A stretch of 64,000 bases of DNA, taken from Saccharopolyspora spinosa NRRL 18395 (lineage in GTDB: Bacteria; Actinomycetota; Actinomycetes; Mycobacteriales; Pseudonocardiaceae). Under the pieces are notes generated by a model that made no database searches, was not told the origin of the DNA, and saw only the letters and a list, made by a program, of their open reading frames with translations. The translations under genes were made by a program, and so were the position numbers. The stretch's first letter is position 1. Each line of letters starts with the position of its first letter. The stretch lies in the NCBI RefSeq assembly GCF_000194155.1, contig NZ_GL877880.1, positions 410,202-474,201 of the forward strand. The letters are read 5' to 3'. Of this stretch, positions 768-8,919 are shown piece after piece.

Positions 768-1145
768 TTACGGCACCGGCGTCACCGGGCGCAGTGCGTG
801 CGCCGGACGCAGGTGCCGTGCGGGACGGGGTGCTAAGGCTCCTGCTACCAGGTGCTCGTACGCCGTGCGCCACACCGAGCATGGTGCTTTCTGCGGGCGC
901 CAGCGGCTTGAGCACTCCGGGCAGTTGCCCTTCTCGTCGGCGTCGTGCGCGGTGAGCAGCGTTCGCCACCCCTCGGTCAGCCGGGGAAGTTCGGAACGCG
1001 CCACGGAGAGCAGGGAAGGGGCGTCCGCGCGGTTCGCGAGCTCGGTCAGCACATCGAGCCGCTCCCGCACCGCACTGCGCAGCACCTGTCCCAGGATCTC
1101 GTCCACCGAAACGTCACCGTCACTTTCTCGCCTGCACAGCGGCAT
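768..1145 (-). CDS. Small hypothetical protein with CPECSSRW motif
   Basis: A 125-residue protein I cannot assign a function. Residues 15-60 are predicted helical (DEILGQVLRSAVRERL), and the second half holds a cysteine-containing stretch CPECSSRWRPQKAPCSVW that resembles short regulator-associated proteins common in Pseudonocardiales. The start overlaps the 3' end of the upstream gene by 26 bases, so the two are probably translated together. The C-terminal 20 residues are Arg/Pro/His-rich and low complexity. The pair stands divergently from the HTH-TPR regulator at 1588, a frequent arrangement in this order, which suggests but does not prove a regulatory link. Confidence 0.6.
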   Translation of the reverse strand: MPLCRRESDGDVSVDEILGQVLRSAVRERLDVLTELANRADAPSLLSVARSELPRLTEGWRTLLTAHDADEKGNCPECSSRWRPQKAPCSVWRTAYEHLVAGALAPRPARHLRPAHALRPVTPVP

Positions 1146-1461
1146 CCCGCAGCGCGTCCGACAACTGGCCGAGGCCGTTGACCGACAACGCGGCGGAATG
1201 GCCGGGCGGTCCGACGAGTACCACCCTGTCCCGGTTTACCAGCACGTCCAAGAACCGGTGCGAGTTCGCCACGTCTCGGCAGTCCACTCGCCACCAACGG
1301 CGCCGATCCGCGGGCGTGTTGGGGAACTCGGCCGACTGGCCGTTTCCGCCCTGTGCTTCCCGCATCTCGTCACCGTTCCCGTCCGTGCTCGGTTTGCCTG
1401 TGCTGACTAGATTGGAACGGAACGGGTCCTCGCGCCTAGGGGTGCGGCGATAACCGGGCAA
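1120..1461 (-). CDS. Small hypothetical protein, first gene of the operon
   Basis: A 113-residue protein without a recognised domain. The first 45 residues are polar and disordered (Arg, Gly, Asn, Ser); the conserved-looking core is RWWRVDCRDVANSHRFLD and DRVVLVGPPGHSAALS, reading like a small alpha/beta fold of the type encoded next to HTH regulators in actinomycetes. A later start near residue 33 (MREAQGGN) is possible. It precedes and overlaps the 768-1145 gene, and its promoter region is shared with the divergent regulator at 1588. No enzyme motif is visible. Confidence 0.6.
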   Translation of the reverse strand: MPGYRRTPRREDPFRSNLVSTGKPSTDGNGDEMREAQGGNGQSAEFPNTPADRRRWWRVDCRDVANSHRFLDVLVNRDRVVLVGPPGHSAALSVNGLGQLSDALRDAAVQARK

Positions 1462-1587: not shown

Positions 1588-2958
1588 ATGAACATCATCG
1601 GTTCTGGCGGCTCTCCCGTTACACCCGACGTCTGGAACGAGCGGGAGATGCGGGATGCGCTGGCTCGACGGGACGTCAGCGAGATCTACCGGCAACTGCG
1701 CCGGCATGGCGTTTCGCAGCGGCAGATCGCAGCCACGACGGGGCAGTCGCAGTCCGAGGTGTCCGAGATCCTCAAGGGGCGGCAGGTCATGGCCTATGAC
1801 GTGCTTGTCCGGATCGCTGACGGGCTGAGAATCCCGCGGGGCTACATGGGCCTCGCCTACGACGGGGCGACCGCTATACGGGTCGCGCAGGCGGCCAACG
1901 CCCCTGACGCTGAGGAGGAGGAGTCGGTGAAGCGCAGGAAGTTCCTGTCCCACGCCGCAGCGGTGACCATGGGGGCGGCCGTATTCGGCGCCGAGACCAG
2001 TACCTGGTTGCCCGCCAGCGCGCAGACGCCGGCACCGGCACGCATCGGCATGACCGACGTGCAGCAGATCCACGCCGCGACCAAGGCATTGCGCGATCTC
2101 GACTACCGCTACGGCGGTGGGACCTGCCGGGACGCCGTCGTCGCCCAGCTGTCCTGGGCGCAGCAGCTGCTCGAGTCCAGCGCCACCGATCCCGTTCGAA
2201 AGCAGCTCTTCGTGGCCCTGGCGGACATGCACAGCCTGGCCGGTTGGACCTCGTTCGACGTGGGCCTGCTCGACCCCGCTCGCGGGCACTTCGGCAAGGC
2301 GCTGGAATTCGCGAAGCAGGCCGACGACGACGGCCTGGTGGCCAGCGTGCTGTACCGGATGGGCCGCGTCTACCTGCATCACGAGGAGCCGAACGAGGCG
2401 CTGAAGCTGTTCCAGCTGGGCCAGATCGCCGCGCAAGACTCCGGTTCCTCGCTGACCGTGGCCGTGCTGTGCGCCAACGAGGCCTGGGCCTACGGCATGT
2501 TGAACAAGCCGGAGCAGGTGCAGAAGATGGTGGGCCGCACGAAGGACGAATTCGCCCGCGCCCGCGCCGACGAGGCGCCGGACTGGGTGCGCTTCTTCAC
2601 CGAGAACGACCTGCACGGCATGATCGGCTCCGCGCACGACGCGCTGGCCGTCTTCGAGCCGAGAAAGCACGCCTCGATCGCCGTCGCCGAGACCATCAAG
2701 TGCAACGAGGCCTACGGCGCGGACATGGCGCGTACCCACGTCTTCGGCCTGAGCCTGCAGGCCACCAACCACATCCGGGCCGGCGACCTGCAGGAGGGCG
2801 TAAAGGTCGGGCGGCGGGCGCTGGAGTTCGGCGAGCGGGTCAAATCCGCGCGCGTCGCCGACCGGCTCAAGCCGTTGGAGCTGGAGGCCGGCAAGCACCG
2901 GATGAATTCGGATGTCCGCGACCTGTTCGAGGCGGTCCGGCGGTTCCGCCGGGTGTGA
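1588..2958 (+). CDS. XRE-type HTH regulator with Tat-like segment and TPR domain
   Basis: A 456-residue protein. Residues about 30-85 form a helix-turn-helix of the XRE class (SQRQIAATTGQSQSEVSEIL). Residues about 112-140 contain a twin-arginine-like stretch, KRRKFLSHAAAVTMGAAVFG, in the middle of the chain, a known oddity of this actinobacterial family; whether it exports anything is unclear. The remaining 300 residues are helical TPR-like repeats (LADMHSLAGWTSFDVG, ALEFAKQADDDGLVASVLYR). Family members are thought to be transcription regulators that sense ligands or partner proteins through the TPR region. It faces the small minus-strand operon at 768-1461 and may control it. Start ATG chosen because it precedes the HTH; no strong ribosome site is visible. 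Confidence 0.85.
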   Translation: MNIIGSGGSPVTPDVWNEREMRDALARRDVSEIYRQLRRHGVSQRQIAATTGQSQSEVSEILKGRQVMAYDVLVRIADGLRIPRGYMGLAYDGATAIRVAQAANAPDAEEEESVKRRKFLSHAAAVTMGAAVFGAETSTWLPASAQTPAPARIGMTDVQQIHAATKALRDLDYRYGGGTCRDAVVAQLSWAQQLLESSATDPVRKQLFVALADMHSLAGWTSFDVGLLDPARGHFGKALEFAKQADDDGLVASVLYRMGRVYLHHEEPNEALKLFQLGQIAAQDSGSSLTVAVLCANEAWAYGMLNKPEQVQKMVGRTKDEFARARADEAPDWVRFFTENDLHGMIGSAHDALAVFEPRKHASIAVAETIKCNEAYGADMARTHVFGLSLQATNHIRAGDLQEGVKVGRRALEFGERVKSARVADRLKPLELEAGKHRMNSDVRDLFEAVRRFRRV

Positions 2959-3003: not shown

Positions 3004-3915
3004 ATGAGCATGAAGACACAACCAGTGGAAGAGAGTCGGTGCGTTCCGCCTGAGCTGGATCTGGCACTGACCGAAATCTGCGCGGCCGTCGGCCTCGATT
3101 CGACCGGCGCGCGTTTGATCCGAATCGTCAACAACGGGGTTTTCCTGCTCCGCGACCAGCAAGTCGTCGTCCGCTTGGTGCTTTCCCCGTCCTTCACCTA
3201 TCGAGCTTTCAACGCCGTGGAAGCCGCGCGTTGGCTGGCGGTGCACGGGGTTCCCGCCGTGCGCTTGCTGCCGGGTGTCGAGCAGCCGGTCCAGGTGGGC
3301 GAACACCTGGCGACCCTCTGGCAGTACGTGCCGGAGGCCGGCCCGATGCCCAGCGGCGCGGACCTCGGCGAACTGCTGCGCCAGATGCATTCGAAGCCGG
3401 CCTCACCGACTTTCCTGGACTGGCAGCCGATGGCGGACATCCGGCGCCGGTTGACCGATGCGGTCGACACCGATCCGGCCGATCACCGGTTTCTGGAACA
3501 GCGCTGCGACGCGTTGGAAGAACGGCTGGAAACGCTGCACTTCCCGTTATCGCGCAGCGTGATCCACGCGGATGCACACCTGGGCAACGTGATCGGCGGG
3601 GCGGATGGTCCGTTGCTGTGCGACCTGGATTCGCTGTGCATCGGGCCGCCGGAGTGGGACCTGATCCCGATCGCGGTGGGTCGGCTGCGGATGGGGCACC
3701 CGCCGTGCTGGCACGACGACCTAATCCGGGCCTACGGTTTCGACATCACGTGCTGGGAAGGCTTTCCCGTGCTGCGCGAACTGCGCGAACTGAAGATCAC
3801 CACCGGGGTGCTCCCGATCCTGCGCAGCAATCCCGGGGTTCGCGAGCAACTGCACCAGCGGTTGCGCACGATCAGGGACGGAGATCTCGCCACGCAATGG
3901 GTGCCGTACAGCTGA
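3004..3915 (+). CDS. Phosphotransferase family protein (APH/choline-kinase fold)
   Basis: A 303-residue protein with the APH-type kinase fold. The Brenner motif HADAHLGN (catalytic Asp within) is followed by LLCDLDSLCIGPPEWDL, which holds the metal-binding Asp. Length fits the family. Members phosphorylate small molecules such as aminoglycosides, homoserine, choline or sugars; the substrate cannot be read from sequence. It starts 45 bases after the regulator at 1588, on the same strand, and could be co-transcribed with it. Resistance to an antibiotic is only one possibility and is not supported by a specific subfamily match. Confidence 0.85.
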   Translation: MSMKTQPVEESRCVPPELDLALTEICAAVGLDSTGARLIRIVNNGVFLLRDQQVVVRLVLSPSFTYRAFNAVEAARWLAVHGVPAVRLLPGVEQPVQVGEHLATLWQYVPEAGPMPSGADLGELLRQMHSKPASPTFLDWQPMADIRRRLTDAVDTDPADHRFLEQRCDALEERLETLHFPLSRSVIHADAHLGNVIGGADGPLLCDLDSLCIGPPEWDLIPIAVGRLRMGHPPCWHDDLIRAYGFDITCWEGFPVLRELRELKITTGVLPILRSNPGVREQLHQRLRTIRDGDLATQWVPYS

Positions 3916-4059
3916 TCCGGTCTACTGCTAGGCCGAACGGGCGATCTTGGGTCGATTGCCGGGGCGGTTTTACAGTTTCTGGTGACGTACCTTCGGGCGA
4001 AGGGGTAAACTATACGGGCGAACTGGTGCATCGGTGCGTTGCTACGGGACGGGCTGTCG

Positions 4060-4362
4060 ATGAGGAACGCGAAGTTCTTGCCGCGGATGCCGCGCTGGCG
4101 CCGGAAGCGCGCGTTGCGGGCCGCTCAGGTGCTCGACGACGTGGTGGACAGCCAGGTCGCATCGTTGCCCAGGTTGCCCGAGGAACTCAGGATCCGCCAC
4201 GCCGACCACTTGGCGGAGCTGGTGCTGCTCGCCCAGGCGTATCGGCATTACGCCGCGGGTTGGATCACTTGGCGCCAATTGGAGTGCCGTGGCCGGTTCG
4301 CGTTGCAGCGCTTGGACGGGGACTGCTGCGCCCCGCTCGTGCAGCTCGCCGACGGCGAGTGA
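4060..4362 (+). CDS. Small basic hypothetical protein
   Basis: A 100-residue protein from ATG 4060; a TTG at 4039 would add seven residues. The N-terminus is Arg-rich (MPRWRRKRALRAAQ) and is followed by a helix-rich segment (ELRIRHADHLAELVLLAQAYRHY). No signal peptide, membrane segment or catalytic motif is seen. It sits alone between the phosphotransferase and the large fusion protein. Codon use has the expected high GC at third positions, which supports it being real. Confidence 0.5.
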   Translation: MRNAKFLPRMPRWRRKRALRAAQVLDDVVDSQVASLPRLPEELRIRHADHLAELVLLAQAYRHYAAGWITWRQLECRGRFALQRLDGDCCAPLVQLADGE

Positions 4363-4716
4363 CCACTCGGCGACCGGCGCGTCAGCGTTGCGCCGCAGCC
4401 GTGTCTGCCTGCCGGTGCGCCTGTTGAGCTCGGGTTTCGACGATCGGTGGGGGGCCGTTCGGTCGGGGTGAATTCGGCATTTGCGCCGGTGGTGGCCGCT
4501 GCGCGGAGAAGTGGCGCCGCTTGGACCTCCGGTATTGCGGAATTTGCCGCCATATTCCCAGTTTTCGCTCGCGAGGTCGTTCGGTAGAACCGCGCGAGCC
4601 TTCGGGTACGCAGTTTCTGGAATTTCGAAAACTCGTCGGCCGGATGAGCGGGCGGGTTCTGCTTTGGTGCCTTCTCGGCGGATTCGTGCAGCAAGCGGCG
4701 GACAGATCGATTGGAG
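4363..4716 (+). other. 350-base leader without a gene
   Basis: No convincing gene. The stretch is less GC-rich than its surroundings between 4530 and 4640 (GGAATTTGCCGCCATATTCC and similar) and probably holds the promoter of the fusion gene that follows. I cannot point to a definite -35/-10 pair. Confidence 0.4.
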
Positions 4717-7380
4717 ATGGTTTTGCGCGGTCCGGATGGCCGGTCAGAGCGGCCTGGATTGCTGGACGACGACCCGCTGCTGCGCTTGTACTGCGTGGTG
4801 GCGTCCGCGGCCAGTGCGCATCGAGAACTGGGAACGCTACCGGTGGCGCGGAATGCGGTCGGCCTGGGTGATTTGGCGAGCAGCGGTTTCCCCGGTGATG
4901 TGCTGTCGTTGAAACGGCTGGTGGAGGGCAGGCCGACGGACTGGGGAGCGCCGGACCACCTCGCCGAGTTCGTGGTCCGGCCGTTGCTGATCACCTTCCG
5001 CGGGCTGCTGGCGCGGGGGTGTCTGCCGGTCGGCGATATCGGTGTCGAACTCGACTCGGAGTCGGCGGCCACCGGGCGGATCGTGCTCGCCGGGATCTGC
5101 AGCGCGCGGTCGGCGGTTCCGGGGGTGGCGGACGTGATCGTCGCGTTGGACGCGCAGTTGGACGAGTTGGCGGCGGCCTGCACGCTCGTCACTGGCGACG
5201 AGCGGGTTCGGGCTGCCTTCGACGCCGTCATCGCCCAGGAACTGCGCAACCTCTCCGAGGGGACTGCGGCCGCTTTCGCCGGCGAGCACCCGTGGCGCCG
5301 CTTCGTGCATGCCGTCGCCGCGGAGCAGCACGAGATCCTCAGCCGGGTCGTCCGGCTGGTGAGGGAACGAAGCGTGCGGTGCCGCCGCGAGCCCGGCCTG
5401 CCGCGTCCGTTGGTCGCCGTGGACCTCGACTTCTGCGCGCTGCACCCGAAGCACCGGGTCCGCGATGCGTTGCGCCGTCTTGGCGAGGCGCACGGCATCC
5501 AGGAGTTGGCCGCGCAGCTCGACGTGCTGCCCGGGCTGTACCAACCAGGCTGGCGGCCGTTCTTGGTGCGCAGCGGTTTGCTGGAGCGCTATCCCGAACT
5601 CGATTGGGACGCGCTGTACCCCGAGTACCGCCGGAACGTCGCGTGGGACTGGGAGGCGCTGCGGACCGATGGTCCGGCGCCGGGATTGATCGGGTTCGTC
5701 CGGGACCTGGAGCAAGCCGGTGGCCGGGTCGTCTGGTTGACCGGTCGCCGGCACCGGATGCGGGCCGCCACCGGAGAAGTCCTGGCCCGCCATGGGCTCG
5801 GCCACCTCGAGCTGCGCACCACCGACGACGGGCCGGTCGCGGACCAGAAGGTCGCGGCGCTGCACGAGATGCCGGGGTACGAGCTCGTCGCGGCCTTCGA
5901 CGACTCGGCCGCCAATCGCCGTGCGCTGCAAGCGGCTTTCCCCGCTGCCGTCGTGGTCGCTGTGCGCCCACCGGAGTTCACAGTGGACGGTGCGGGGCGC
6001 ACCGTCGATGGCATCGCAACCTTCGAGTCGCTGCCGCATCCGATCCCGCTGGGGCGCGGGCACAGGCAAAACGCGCAGTTGTCGCATGTGACGTCGCTCG
6101 GCGGGCTGCGGATCGGGGACCTCAGCACGCGCCCCACGATCTGGTCGCGCGGCGTGGAACTGGCCGAGGAGGAGCAGGCGCGGATCGTCGCGTCGCTGGC
6201 GGACGCCGCGCTGGCGAGCGGGCAGCGGCTCGGCGGTCAGGTCGGCGCCGGGATGGATCCGGGCCCGGTGGGGATCGCCCGCGCCGTGTGGCAGGTGATC
6301 ACGGCGAAACCGTTCGGTGCGGCGCGGTCGGCTTATCCCCTCGCGGCAGCCGAACGGGACGTGCTCGCCTCGGTCGAGGCCGGTGACCGCATCCGGTTCA
6401 TCATGGTGGGGCCGTCGCTGAAGCAGGACGGTTCGCGGCTCAAGGCGCTCGGCGGGCTGCCGGACCTCTCCGAGCTGGCGATGCTGGTCCGGCTGCGGGA
6501 ACTCGACGCGGCCGTCCGGCAGGTGCACCCACCGGGGATCGAGGTGCTGGCGCTCACCGATGCCAGCCACTTCAGGTTCCGCGAACCGCACCGGTATGCC
6601 GGGTACCACGAGCAGTTCGTGCAGCAGGTGGAACTCGCCGGAGCACAGGGCGTGGTGACGGTCGAGGACTTCGACAGCGCCGCCGACGCGCACCCGCTCT
6701 GCGGCGACCGGGCGCAGCGACCGGGACTGCTGGCGAAGCACCGCGACAGGTACACCGCGGCGTTCGCGGGTCTCGACATCCGCCGAAACCCGCGGTCGGT
6801 GCTGGCGGCGGCCGACGACAGAGATCCGGCCGGCCCCGGCCAACCGCGGTTCGTCGAGCTGTTCCACTCCGTGCTGCAGGCCGTGGACGTGCCCTTCCCC
6901 GGCGGAGATCCGTTCGCCTGGTCGCAGCGGATCTACGCGGACCCGTTCGACCTGACCGATCCGACGTCCCCGCCCGGGATCCGCCGAGCCCGCGGCGACC
7001 TGCTCGCGCTGACCTGGCGCGAGACGATCACCTACCTCGCGAACAAGCATGTCGACGAGGAACTCGACTATTCGGTGCTTTGGCGGGAGAACTGCGTGCG
7101 GCTGAGCCTGTCGATCCGCCCGGCCCCGGGGAGACTGCGCTTCGTCCCCCTCGGCGGTTCGGGCGTGATTCCGTGGCATGGCACGGCTACCCTCAACGCC
7201 CAGCACGAGGTCTCGGTCGATTACGCGATCTCCCTGGCAGACCAGGGATTCCGACCGGTCCACGCCCCGGGAACCGGCGACCGCCGCCAACCGTGGTTCA
7301 TGGCCCCACCCCAAGCCCTGACCCGCACCGGAGTGCTGGATCCGGAGATCTTCGAACGCATCCGGTTGCGCAGCAAGTAA
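4717..7380 (+). CDS. Three-part fusion: helical domain, HAD phosphatase-like, DIT1/PvcA isocyanide synthase-like
   Basis: An 887-residue protein from ATG 4717 (TTG 4711 is in frame). Residues 1-230 are a helical domain I do not recognise. Residues 231-430 have all four HAD motifs: DLD at 236-238, T342 in WLTGRR, K378 in DQKVAAL, and D395/D396 in AFDDSAANRRAL. Residues about 480-880 resemble the DIT1/PvcA family, which turns the amino group of an amino acid such as tyrosine or tryptophan into an isonitrile using ribulose-5-phosphate: RIRFIMVGPSLKQDG (K569), LGGLPDLSELAML, LTDASHF, and a C-terminal RLSLSIRPAP...PWHGTATLN (P819-G822). Ordinary family members are 300-350 residues and stand alone or fuse to a dioxygenase. 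No PvcB-like dioxygenase, NRPS or other isonitrile gene is in the window. Activity is inferred from motifs only. Confidence 0.75.
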   Translation: MVLRGPDGRSERPGLLDDDPLLRLYCVVASAASAHRELGTLPVARNAVGLGDLASSGFPGDVLSLKRLVEGRPTDWGAPDHLAEFVVRPLLITFRGLLARGCLPVGDIGVELDSESAATGRIVLAGICSARSAVPGVADVIVALDAQLDELAAACTLVTGDERVRAAFDAVIAQELRNLSEGTAAAFAGEHPWRRFVHAVAAEQHEILSRVVRLVRERSVRCRREPGLPRPLVAVDLDFCALHPKHRVRDALRRLGEAHGIQELAAQLDVLPGLYQPGWRPFLVRSGLLERYPELDWDALYPEYRRNVAWDWEALRTDGPAPGLIGFVRDLEQAGGRVVWLTGRRHRMRAATGEVLARHGLGHLELRTTDDGPVADQKVAALHEMPGYELVAAFDDSAANRRALQAAFPAAVVVAVRPPEFTVDGAGRTVDGIATFESLPHPIPLGRGHRQNAQLSHVTSLGGLRIGDLSTRPTIWSRGVELAEEEQARIVASLADAALASGQRLGGQVGAGMDPGPVGIARAVWQVITAKPFGAARSAYPLAAAERDVLASVEAGDRIRFIMVGPSLKQDGSRLKALGGLPDLSELAMLVRLRELDAAVRQVHPPGIEVLALTDASHFRFREPHRYAGYHEQFVQQVELAGAQGVVTVEDFDSAADAHPLCGDRAQRPGLLAKHRDRYTAAFAGLDIRRNPRSVLAAADDRDPAGPGQPRFVELFHSVLQAVDVPFPGGDPFAWSQRIYADPFDLTDPTSPPGIRRARGDLLALTWRETITYLANKHVDEELDYSVLWRENCVRLSLSIRPAPGRLRFVPLGGSGVIPWHGTATLNAQHEVSVDYAISLADQGFRPVHAPGTGDRRQPWFMAPPQALTRTGVLDPEIFERIRLRSK

Positions 7381-7633: not shown

Positions 7634-8164
7634 TCAGGCCTTGGGCTTGCCGAGGCGGAGGGCGAGGACCAGGCCGAGGACGACCAGGAGCACCGCTCCC
7701 GCGATCCACGGCCATATCGGCATGCCGCCCGACTCCCCGGACTGCGCCTGCTGGCCCGGCTGATCCGCGTTCTGCGGGGCCGGGGCCGGGGTGCCCCCAC
7801 CCGGGGTGGTCAGCGTGAAGGTGACCTTGCCAGACACCGGGTGGCCGTCGTTGGACAGCACCCGGTAGCCGACGGTGTAGGCACCCGCCGGGCCCAGCTC
7901 GCGGACCGGCGCGATGACCGAGGTGCCCTCGACCCGCACCTCACCGTCGGCCCAGTACGTCCCGTCCGAGCCGACCACGTTGACCGTGTTGTAGCCCGCG
8001 CGCACCGGCTGGTCGAAGGTCAACCGGACCTCCCGGGGCCCGGTGGCGACCTGCGCGCCGTCCGGCGGATCGCTGCTGACCAGCACGTTGTGCGCCAGCG
8101 CCGTACCGGCGCCGCCGAACAGGGCGGCCAGCGCCAGCACCGCGACAGCCAGCAACCGCTTCAC
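7634..8164 (-). CDS. copC: CopC-domain copper-binding membrane-anchored protein
   Basis: A 176-residue exported protein. Residues 1-24 are a signal peptide ending GTALA; the mature chain starts with His (HNVLVSSDPPDGA), the N-terminal copper ligand typical of CopC. The domain continues to SNDGHPVSGKVTF, whose Asp and His complete the Cu(II) site. A Pro/Gln linker and one C-terminal membrane helix (PWIAGAVLLVVLGLVLALRL) anchor it outside the cell. CopC proteins bind and buffer copper. No CopD-like permease follows. The gene overlaps the upstream ycnI-like gene by 4 bases, so the two are translationally coupled. Confidence 0.88.
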   Translation of the reverse strand: MKRLLAVAVLALAALFGGAGTALAHNVLVSSDPPDGAQVATGPREVRLTFDQPVRAGYNTVNVVGSDGTYWADGEVRVEGTSVIAPVRELGPAGAYTVGYRVLSNDGHPVSGKVTFTLTTPGGGTPAPAPQNADQPGQQAQSGESGGMPIWPWIAGAVLLVVLGLVLALRLGKPKA

Positions 8165-8919
8165 GAGTCGTCCTTCCCGGAATCCTGCTTCGCCGCAGCC
8201 TGCCCGGCATTGCGGCTGCGCGCCAGGGCACCGGCCCCGACACCCAGGCCGAGCGCGCCCACCACGAGCCCGGCGCCGCCCAGCCAGCGGGCCGTGTTGT
8301 CACCGGAACCGGCCTTCGCTTCGTCGGCGGGCGCCTGGTGCGAGGCGCCGCCGTGGGAGTGCTCGCCCTCGGCCTCCTCGACCAGCTTCAGCGCCGGAGC
8401 GGGGTGCTCGGGCTCCTCCGCGCCCTCGGCCGGCGGCGGAGCGTCCCAGTTCACGACCTCGCCGTTGTCGTAGGTCTGCGTGGTGGGCATCACGAGTTCA
8501 TCGGTGTTGGTCGGCAGGGCGCCGAGGGACACCTCGAACTCGTTGAACTCGTTCGGCCCGATCCGGTTGCCCGGCTGCGCCGTCCAGGTGATGGTGCGCA
8601 CAGCTTCGGCAACCTGCGCGCCGGCCACCTCGACCGGCGCGATCTGGACCCGCTCGACCTGGACGTTCCAGCCCGGCATCGGCTTGGTGCGCACCGAGCT
8701 CAGCGGGTACTGCTCTGGAAGGGTCACCTTGACCTGCACGGTCCCGGCGTTCGGCCGCTCGTTCGGCACCCGGAAGGCGACCTTGGCGTAACCGCCCTTG
8801 GCGGCCTCGCCTGGCTGTGCGGTGACGTGCGCGGACGCCGTTCCCGCTCCCATTAGCGCGACAATCCCGCAAGCAGCGGCCAGTGCCGCGGATCGAACCG
8901 CGAATCGCTTTGTCGACAT
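8161..8919 (-). CDS. ycnI: YcnI-like copper-binding protein (DUF1775)
   Basis: A 252-residue protein. Residues 1-30 are a signal peptide ending ASA; the mature protein begins with His (HVTAQPGEAAKGG), the conserved Cu(II) ligand of the YcnI/DUF1775 family. The beta-sandwich runs to about residue 175 (EFNEFEVSLGALPTN). A His-containing linker (EGEHSHGGASHQ) precedes a single C-terminal membrane helix (LGGAGLVVGALGLGVGAGALA). It probably loads or stores copper at the outer face of the membrane together with the downstream CopC. It follows the membrane gene at 8992 by 72 bases, forming a three-gene minus-strand operon. Confidence 0.88.
   Translation of the reverse strand: MSTKRFAVRSAALAAACGIVALMGAGTASAHVTAQPGEAAKGGYAKVAFRVPNERPNAGTVQVKVTLPEQYPLSSVRTKPMPGWNVQVERVQIAPVEVAGAQVAEAVRTITWTAQPGNRIGPNEFNEFEVSLGALPTNTDELVMPTTQTYDNGEVVNWDAPPPAEGAEEPEHPAPALKLVEEAEGEHSHGGASHQAPADEAKAGSGDNTARWLGGAGLVVGALGLGVGAGALARSRNAGQAAAKQDSGKDDS

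Follow-up and report, generated by a model that had tools for sequence, protein, structure and literature searches.

For isocyanide synthases (ICS) of the DIT1/PvcA family (Pfam PF05141), the accessible text of PMC5974471 reports an exhaustive search that recovered single-domain, ICS–dioxygenase and ICS–nonribosomal peptide synthetase (NRPS) proteins; it describes bacterial members as "commonly" single-domain or dioxygenase-fused and places the NRPS fusions in fungi. The available portion of PMC10153163 gives the same three architectures in fungi. As that accessible text describes it, the search started in 2016 from Aspergillus proteins and applied a length filter, by which divergent fusions could have been lost. 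According to the part of PMC7345447 that is open to view, PvcA is unable to replace yeast Dit1, whose product is most likely formyl tyrosine. Here we analyze a gene, designated B, in a 64,000-nucleotide stretch of the genome of the soil actinomycete Saccharopolyspora spinosa NRRL 18395 (contig NZ_GL877880.1, positions 410,202 to 474,201; hereafter the window). B is a paralog of a Pseudonocardiales-centred family that joins three modules in one chain: a fold of the NRPS-independent siderophore (NIS) synthetase type, a haloacid dehalogenase (HAD) domain and a divergent DIT1/PvcA-fold domain. This three-part fusion is real, conserved and nearly genus-wide in Saccharopolyspora, and extends further than the initial annotation had it. 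The combination looks undescribed: the literature titles and abstracts listed in searches, in which subscription journals are mostly uncovered and absence is thus unproven, describe no NIS/HAD/DIT1 fusion, in agreement with the initial annotation of this DNA, which knew of no family with this order.

The gene and its parts occupy the following window coordinates:

4717..7380, forward strand: paralog B, a fusion of an NIS-like part (C-terminal half), HAD and DIT1/PvcA fold, 887 residues
4726..5301, forward strand: B residues 4–195, a remnant whose fold resembles that of NIS siderophore synthetases (IucA/IucC type) in their C-terminal half
5395..6030, forward strand: B residues 227–438, the HAD phosphatase domain, which carries a helical insertion between motifs I and II
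6079..7377, forward strand: B residues 455–887, the divergent DIT1/PvcA-fold domain
6421..6423, forward strand: Lys569, matching the Lys of canonical GFPxKSP, in 60/60 fused members
7171..7182, forward strand: PWHG, B residues 819–822; family form PW[HQ]G

The reading frame is open throughout and encodes a single chain of 887 residues, as the initial annotation had stated, and every residue and motif that it named was located in place (D236, D238, T342, K378, D395, D396, K569, LPDLSE at 581–586 and PWHG at 819–822). An alternative in-frame TTG at 4711, adding two residues, could be the true start. The predicted model of B has a mean predicted local distance difference test score (pLDDT) of 84.7 and a predicted template modelling score (pTM) of 0.83. 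With folds assigned by structure prediction, and paralogy and conserved residues by computation, the NIS-like/HAD/DIT1–PvcA anatomy of B appears almost certain.

In the predicted model, the DIT1 module adopts the three-dimensional fold of PvcA. Comparison of 60 fused proteins demonstrated that K569, D583, E586 and D615 are invariant (60/60) and that K576 is retained in 59; in 39/60, Gln takes the place of the PWH His. Some loci represent the same genome under two labels; a filter for shared sequence was applied to the 60 proteins, which still include near-copies from sister species. Paralog A, the longer companion of B described below, matches PF05141 at 57.4 bits. Outside the window, the host genome also carries a separate canonical ICS gene (PF05141, 261 bits; L037:1441-2352, G000:C5 ~144,400-145,300), flanked by cytochrome P450 and methyltransferase genes that were named by eye. 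The P450–ICS pair recurs in L041, L042 and L036, and we take it to suggest a tyrosine isonitrile locus of the xanthocillin/hazimycin type.

The HAD domain of B has the predicted HAD fold, and its six catalytic residues (DxD, T, K and DD motifs) are kept in 20/20 distinct B proteins compared, which bears out the earlier description of a domain with all four catalytic motifs. In A the HAD is decaying in many species, and in B it is retained.

The N-terminal part resembles NIS synthetases by comparison of predicted models. Predicted A residues 57–431 match the fold of IucA residues 122–534 over 291 aligned positions, and the predicted N-terminal part of B has its counterpart in the C-terminal half of SbnC, A keeping more of the NIS fold than B; residues 1–230 had previously been read as a helical domain of unknown type, a description that appears to have overlooked this NIS-synthetase-like remnant. 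Neither of two NIS signatures was found in the 18 A-type N-termini (HPWQ and H.QN, 0/18 each; 12/12 and 8/12 in true NIS synthetases), and three further patterns were uninformative: S.RT (6/18 A, 12/12 NIS), GHP.HP..K (0/18 A, 4/12 NIS) and N[TC]..R (1/18 A, 0/12 NIS). Separately, three matches to IucA/IucC (NIS) synthetases, probably a siderophore cluster, lie close to one another elsewhere in the host genome (G000:C4:344698-349983), outside the window.

The longer paralog A lies at L021:7335-10814 of the host genome, ending ~1.4 kb ahead of the window, and measures ~1,110–1,160 residues by the gene calls made here; the label A covers every fused protein other than B. Among the 61 genomes searched, most of the genus Saccharopolyspora carry two paralogs per genome. 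Across 22 Saccharopolyspora genomes, host included, B was found in 20 (the host and 19 others) and A in 21, with neither in one (G009). A-like genes also occur in Halopolyspora, Halosaccharopolyspora, Actinopolyspora, Actinoalloteichus and other genera of the taxonomic family. Fused relatives of 915–965 residues in other gene contexts are present in a group including Kutzneria and in Streptosporangium carneum, and DIT1-only relatives (gene calls of 342–501 residues) in Pseudonocardiales metagenome-assembled genomes (MAGs) and Kutzneria. At E 0.001, an A+B profile matched 148/390 genomes of the taxonomic family; among the matches listed, ~65 genomes (hand count) had matches of at least 300 bits, the rest being short, at most 60 bits, and in the DIT1 or HAD part. 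In 396 phylum-wide genomes, long matches came only from the host, with 10 others at 50 bits or less. Among the one-contig genomes scoring at least 300 bits, 19 in number, a hand count placed the match within ~100 kb of a contig end in 10 (G405 by its rounded size), as would be expected of a site near the origin should numbering begin at dnaA; in the other 9 it lies elsewhere. In a tree of 69 rows, with window B entered twice and the fused proteins of L075, L092, L101 and L128, outside the motif filter, omitted, 33/36 A rows formed one group (88/100).

Selective constraint was estimated by the Nei–Gojobori method as the ratio of nonsynonymous to synonymous substitution rates (dN/dS) in nine paralog pairs (five B, four A), with approximate domain limits taken from window B and from A in L021 and applied to all pairs. 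The DIT1 part gave 0.13–0.29 in B and 0.06–0.21 in A, and the HAD 0.17–0.35 in B and 0.15–0.33 in A. The NIS-like part was looser in B (0.20–0.79) and ranged over 0.17–0.32 in A; the B linker reached 1.93 in one pair and 0.06–0.85 in the other four.

Our best guess, one that we hold tentatively and with the chances slightly against it, is that the family carries out a condensation that resembles, but has diverged from, that of PvcA, with a phosphatase acting in cis. That the DIT1 module is catalytic at all seems somewhat more likely than not. It would condense an amine, either an amino acid or an amino-alcohol, with a small phosphorylated keto-sugar in the pocket that has kept its Lys/Asp/Glu/PW[HQ] residues, much as PvcA handles ribulose-5-phosphate; the substrate or the outcome would differ from that of PvcA, since the pocket has been rebuilt in its second half. 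The HAD of B would act in cis and take the phosphate off either the donor fragment or the product, a step that we consider somewhat doubtful. The NIS-fold module would no longer adenylate; its role would be in binding or as a scaffold, and it might bring A and B together as a pair. On the boldest version of this proposal, which we regard as on the unlikely side, the duplicated core-genome NIS-fold/HAD/DIT1 pair of Saccharopolyspora and relatives would be a new enzyme class on the ICS fold. An amine and a phosphorylated sugar would be joined in the rebuilt PvcA pocket, and the attached phosphatase would complete the reaction; the metabolite, undescribed and possibly no isonitrile, would have a role in development or in connection with metals.

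One set of results weighs against the domain assignments in B itself. In Pfam, B alone matches DIT1_PvcA at residues 552–619 with E 2.2e-5 and 24.5 bits (cut-off 26.4) and HAD Hydrolase with 18.8 bits, also below the cut-off of 26.4; an NCBIfam scan of B gave no match, and its best PDB sequence match was the isonitrile synthase 9dhm at E 0.041. A family-level test was therefore needed, and hhalign of family alignment A8 (18 rows) against five canonical ICS returned 98.5% and E 3e-15; the C-terminal assignment of the initial annotation holds for the family and for the predicted fold, and falls short of the Pfam threshold for B by itself. Other results weigh against the proposed reading of the family. 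The signatures KSP[NS], SDG.VF.D, IHPQ and TPWH, present in 5/5 canonical ICS compared and readable in PvcA and PIsnA too, were each found anywhere in the chain in 0/60 fused and 0/7 DIT1-only proteins; a further pattern, K[FI]G[IL], matched 17/60 fused proteins, probably outside the DIT1 part, and was left unused. Sequence profiles gave no support for NIS homology (hhalign E 0.06 and 0.2), and no NIS protein was named among the 50 Foldseek hits listed for B. In the tree, the Kutzneria-type L089 and L091 join B (92/93) and Streptosporangium L071 stands apart, so that non-B proteins are not one clade. The HAD residues are broken in 19/40 non-B fused proteins and intact in 21/40 (the tally for A without the four Kutzneria-type and Streptosporangium proteins is 17/36), and there are DIT1-only relatives whose genes encode no HAD, indicating that the phosphatase is not generally needed for the DIT1 chemistry. 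The counts lend no support to the idea that B stands in for A: the HAD was broken in 8/19 A from genomes that also have a B and in 11/21 with no B found, absence of B being judged from genome searches or from the locus alone (L071, L067 and other named loci). Finally, in L021 no gene between A and B was recognised as a tailoring enzyme (iron/2-oxoglutarate oxygenase or P450); two short open reading frames (ORFs) in that interval and many outer neighbours are unannotated.

The initial interpretation is supported in part. It had suggested an isonitrile or a related product, with a phosphatase that could act on a phosphorylated co-substrate or product; that A and B are true ICS, combining an amino acid with ribulose-5-phosphate while the HAD clears phosphate from the by-product, seems unlikely. 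The fold and part of the pocket are indeed common to PvcA and PIsnA, including the four invariant residues and K576. Against this reading, the four tested signatures are lost in 60/60, the five canonical actinobacterial ICS are set off from the family by a very long branch (4.2 + 3.4 changes per column on the two sides of the midpoint root), the host has its own canonical ICS gene (261 bits) beside a by-eye P450, and no tailoring oxygenase was recognised between the paralogs. An isonitrile gene cluster was dropped as the default reading, the gene pair being nearly genus-wide and no tailoring enzyme having been recognised between its two members.

Improbable to a similar degree is a bacterial counterpart of Dit1, which would N-formylate rather than form an isonitrile and would supply spore-forming Pseudonocardiaceae with a building block for development or for the cell surface. 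The Pfam domain of Dit1 is the same, and the accessible part of PMC7345447 reports it as a non-ICS enzyme most likely yielding formyl tyrosine, and the nearly genus-wide pair adjoins an NsdA-family regulator; yet the likeness to Dit1 is by Pfam domain name only, no spore-wall gene was linked to the family, and the s105 gene of the NsdA–APH–s105 block occurs in many genomes with no strong family match. A fused protein whose DIT1 part has lost catalysis, and which would sense, scaffold or bind a ligand, the HAD being the sole enzyme in B, would suit the lack of two tested signatures in the NIS module, the decaying HAD of many A and the His-to-Gln change in 39/60, but is quite improbable given K569, D583, E586 and D615 invariant in 60/60 and the low DIT1 dN/dS (0.06–0.21 in A, four pairs; 0.13–0.29 in B, five pairs).

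The genes ahead of B run in the following order, from two small divergent genes to s105:

768..1106, reverse strand: s112, small divergent gene whose product includes a CPEC...C stretch
1120..1365, reverse strand: s81, small divergent gene beside the regulator
1588..2958, forward strand: NsdA-family XRE/TPR regulator (NF053720, 325.7 bits)
3004..3915, forward strand: APH-family kinase (PF01636, 62.9 bits)
4039..4362, forward strand: s105, small conserved protein with no Pfam match

NsdA is a repressor of sporulation. In the loci read, s105 usually stands near an APH-family kinase and an NsdA-type regulator. It is present in 157/297 genomes of the taxonomic family, ~52 of which (hand count) have an A+B match of at least 300 bits among the matches listed. 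A DIT1-only gene sits between APH and s105 in 8/8 MAG loci (L077–L084), one with an extra ORF, and of eight s105 blocks fetched from s105 genomes, one held a DIT1-family gene inside the stretch and seven held none. An operon with NsdA, APH and s105 was rejected, s105 being common in genomes that lack a strong family match and 7/8 fetched blocks lacking a family gene, which makes a functional link weak. Because most of the fetched s105 blocks lack a DIT1-family gene, the pairing of a kinase (APH) with a phosphatase (HAD) is only a lead. CopC-like and YcnI-like genes, named by eye (window 7634–8919, reverse strand), lie downstream of B in many Saccharopolyspora loci and beside the NsdA–APH–s105 block in many loci with or without B. 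The pair also occurs beside that block with A and no B (L087, L088, L100), as well as in loci whose fetched stretch contains no family gene (L121–L127), indicating shared chromosomal order, not evidence for copper, and a copper link was rejected. In two species (L059 and L073), two extra ORFs of ~500 and ~475 residues lie between A and the NsdA block, on the stretch from A to s112.

A two-copy, nearly genus-wide family in which the ICS fold has a rebuilt active site and is fused to a phosphatase and an NIS fold would mean that this fold serves chemistry that can escape ICS genome mining, B itself falling under the Pfam cut-off. The near-universal presence of A and B in the searched Saccharopolyspora genomes makes their function open to direct genetic study; S. 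erythraea, the genetically tractable erythromycin producer of the genus, was not identified among the genomes searched.

Compared with known systems, the DIT1 module of B shares with PvcA/IsnA (PDB 3e59, 9dh4, 9dhm; PF05141) a predicted fold over ~280 residues, the PDxxE- and PG...D- motifs, the Lys of GFPxK and the PWH/PWQ turn. In contrast to these enzymes, the fused family has KSP[NS], SDG.VF.D, IHPQ and TPWH replaced, has a new conserved set ([LI]GG[SA], PW[HQ]G and a C-terminal QP), and is joined to NIS-like and HAD parts. With the NIS synthetases (IucA, AcsD, SbnC, DesD; PF04183), A shares the predicted fold and B only its C-terminal half, whereas A-type N-termini lack HPWQ and H.QN and have no Pfam or profile match. 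B has the fold and four motifs of HAD phosphatases (T4 Pnkp 3' phosphatase, AphA/class C acid phosphatases, and the LNS2 domain of Nir2), while its HAD sits mid-chain in a three-module protein. Yeast Dit1 (PF05141) is likened to B by domain name, not by sequence; it is single-domain in the accessible text of PMC5974471, and as the most likely formyl-tyrosine producer of PMC7345447, in the part available, it indicates that the fold also serves non-isonitrile chemistry. Other multidomain ICS are IsnAB and XanB (ICS–dioxygenase) and CrmA (ICS–NRPS), in which, according to the accessible text of PMC5974471, an ICS domain is likewise fused to enzymatic modules; their partners are a dioxygenase or an NRPS, whereas those of B are a HAD phosphatase and an NIS fold.
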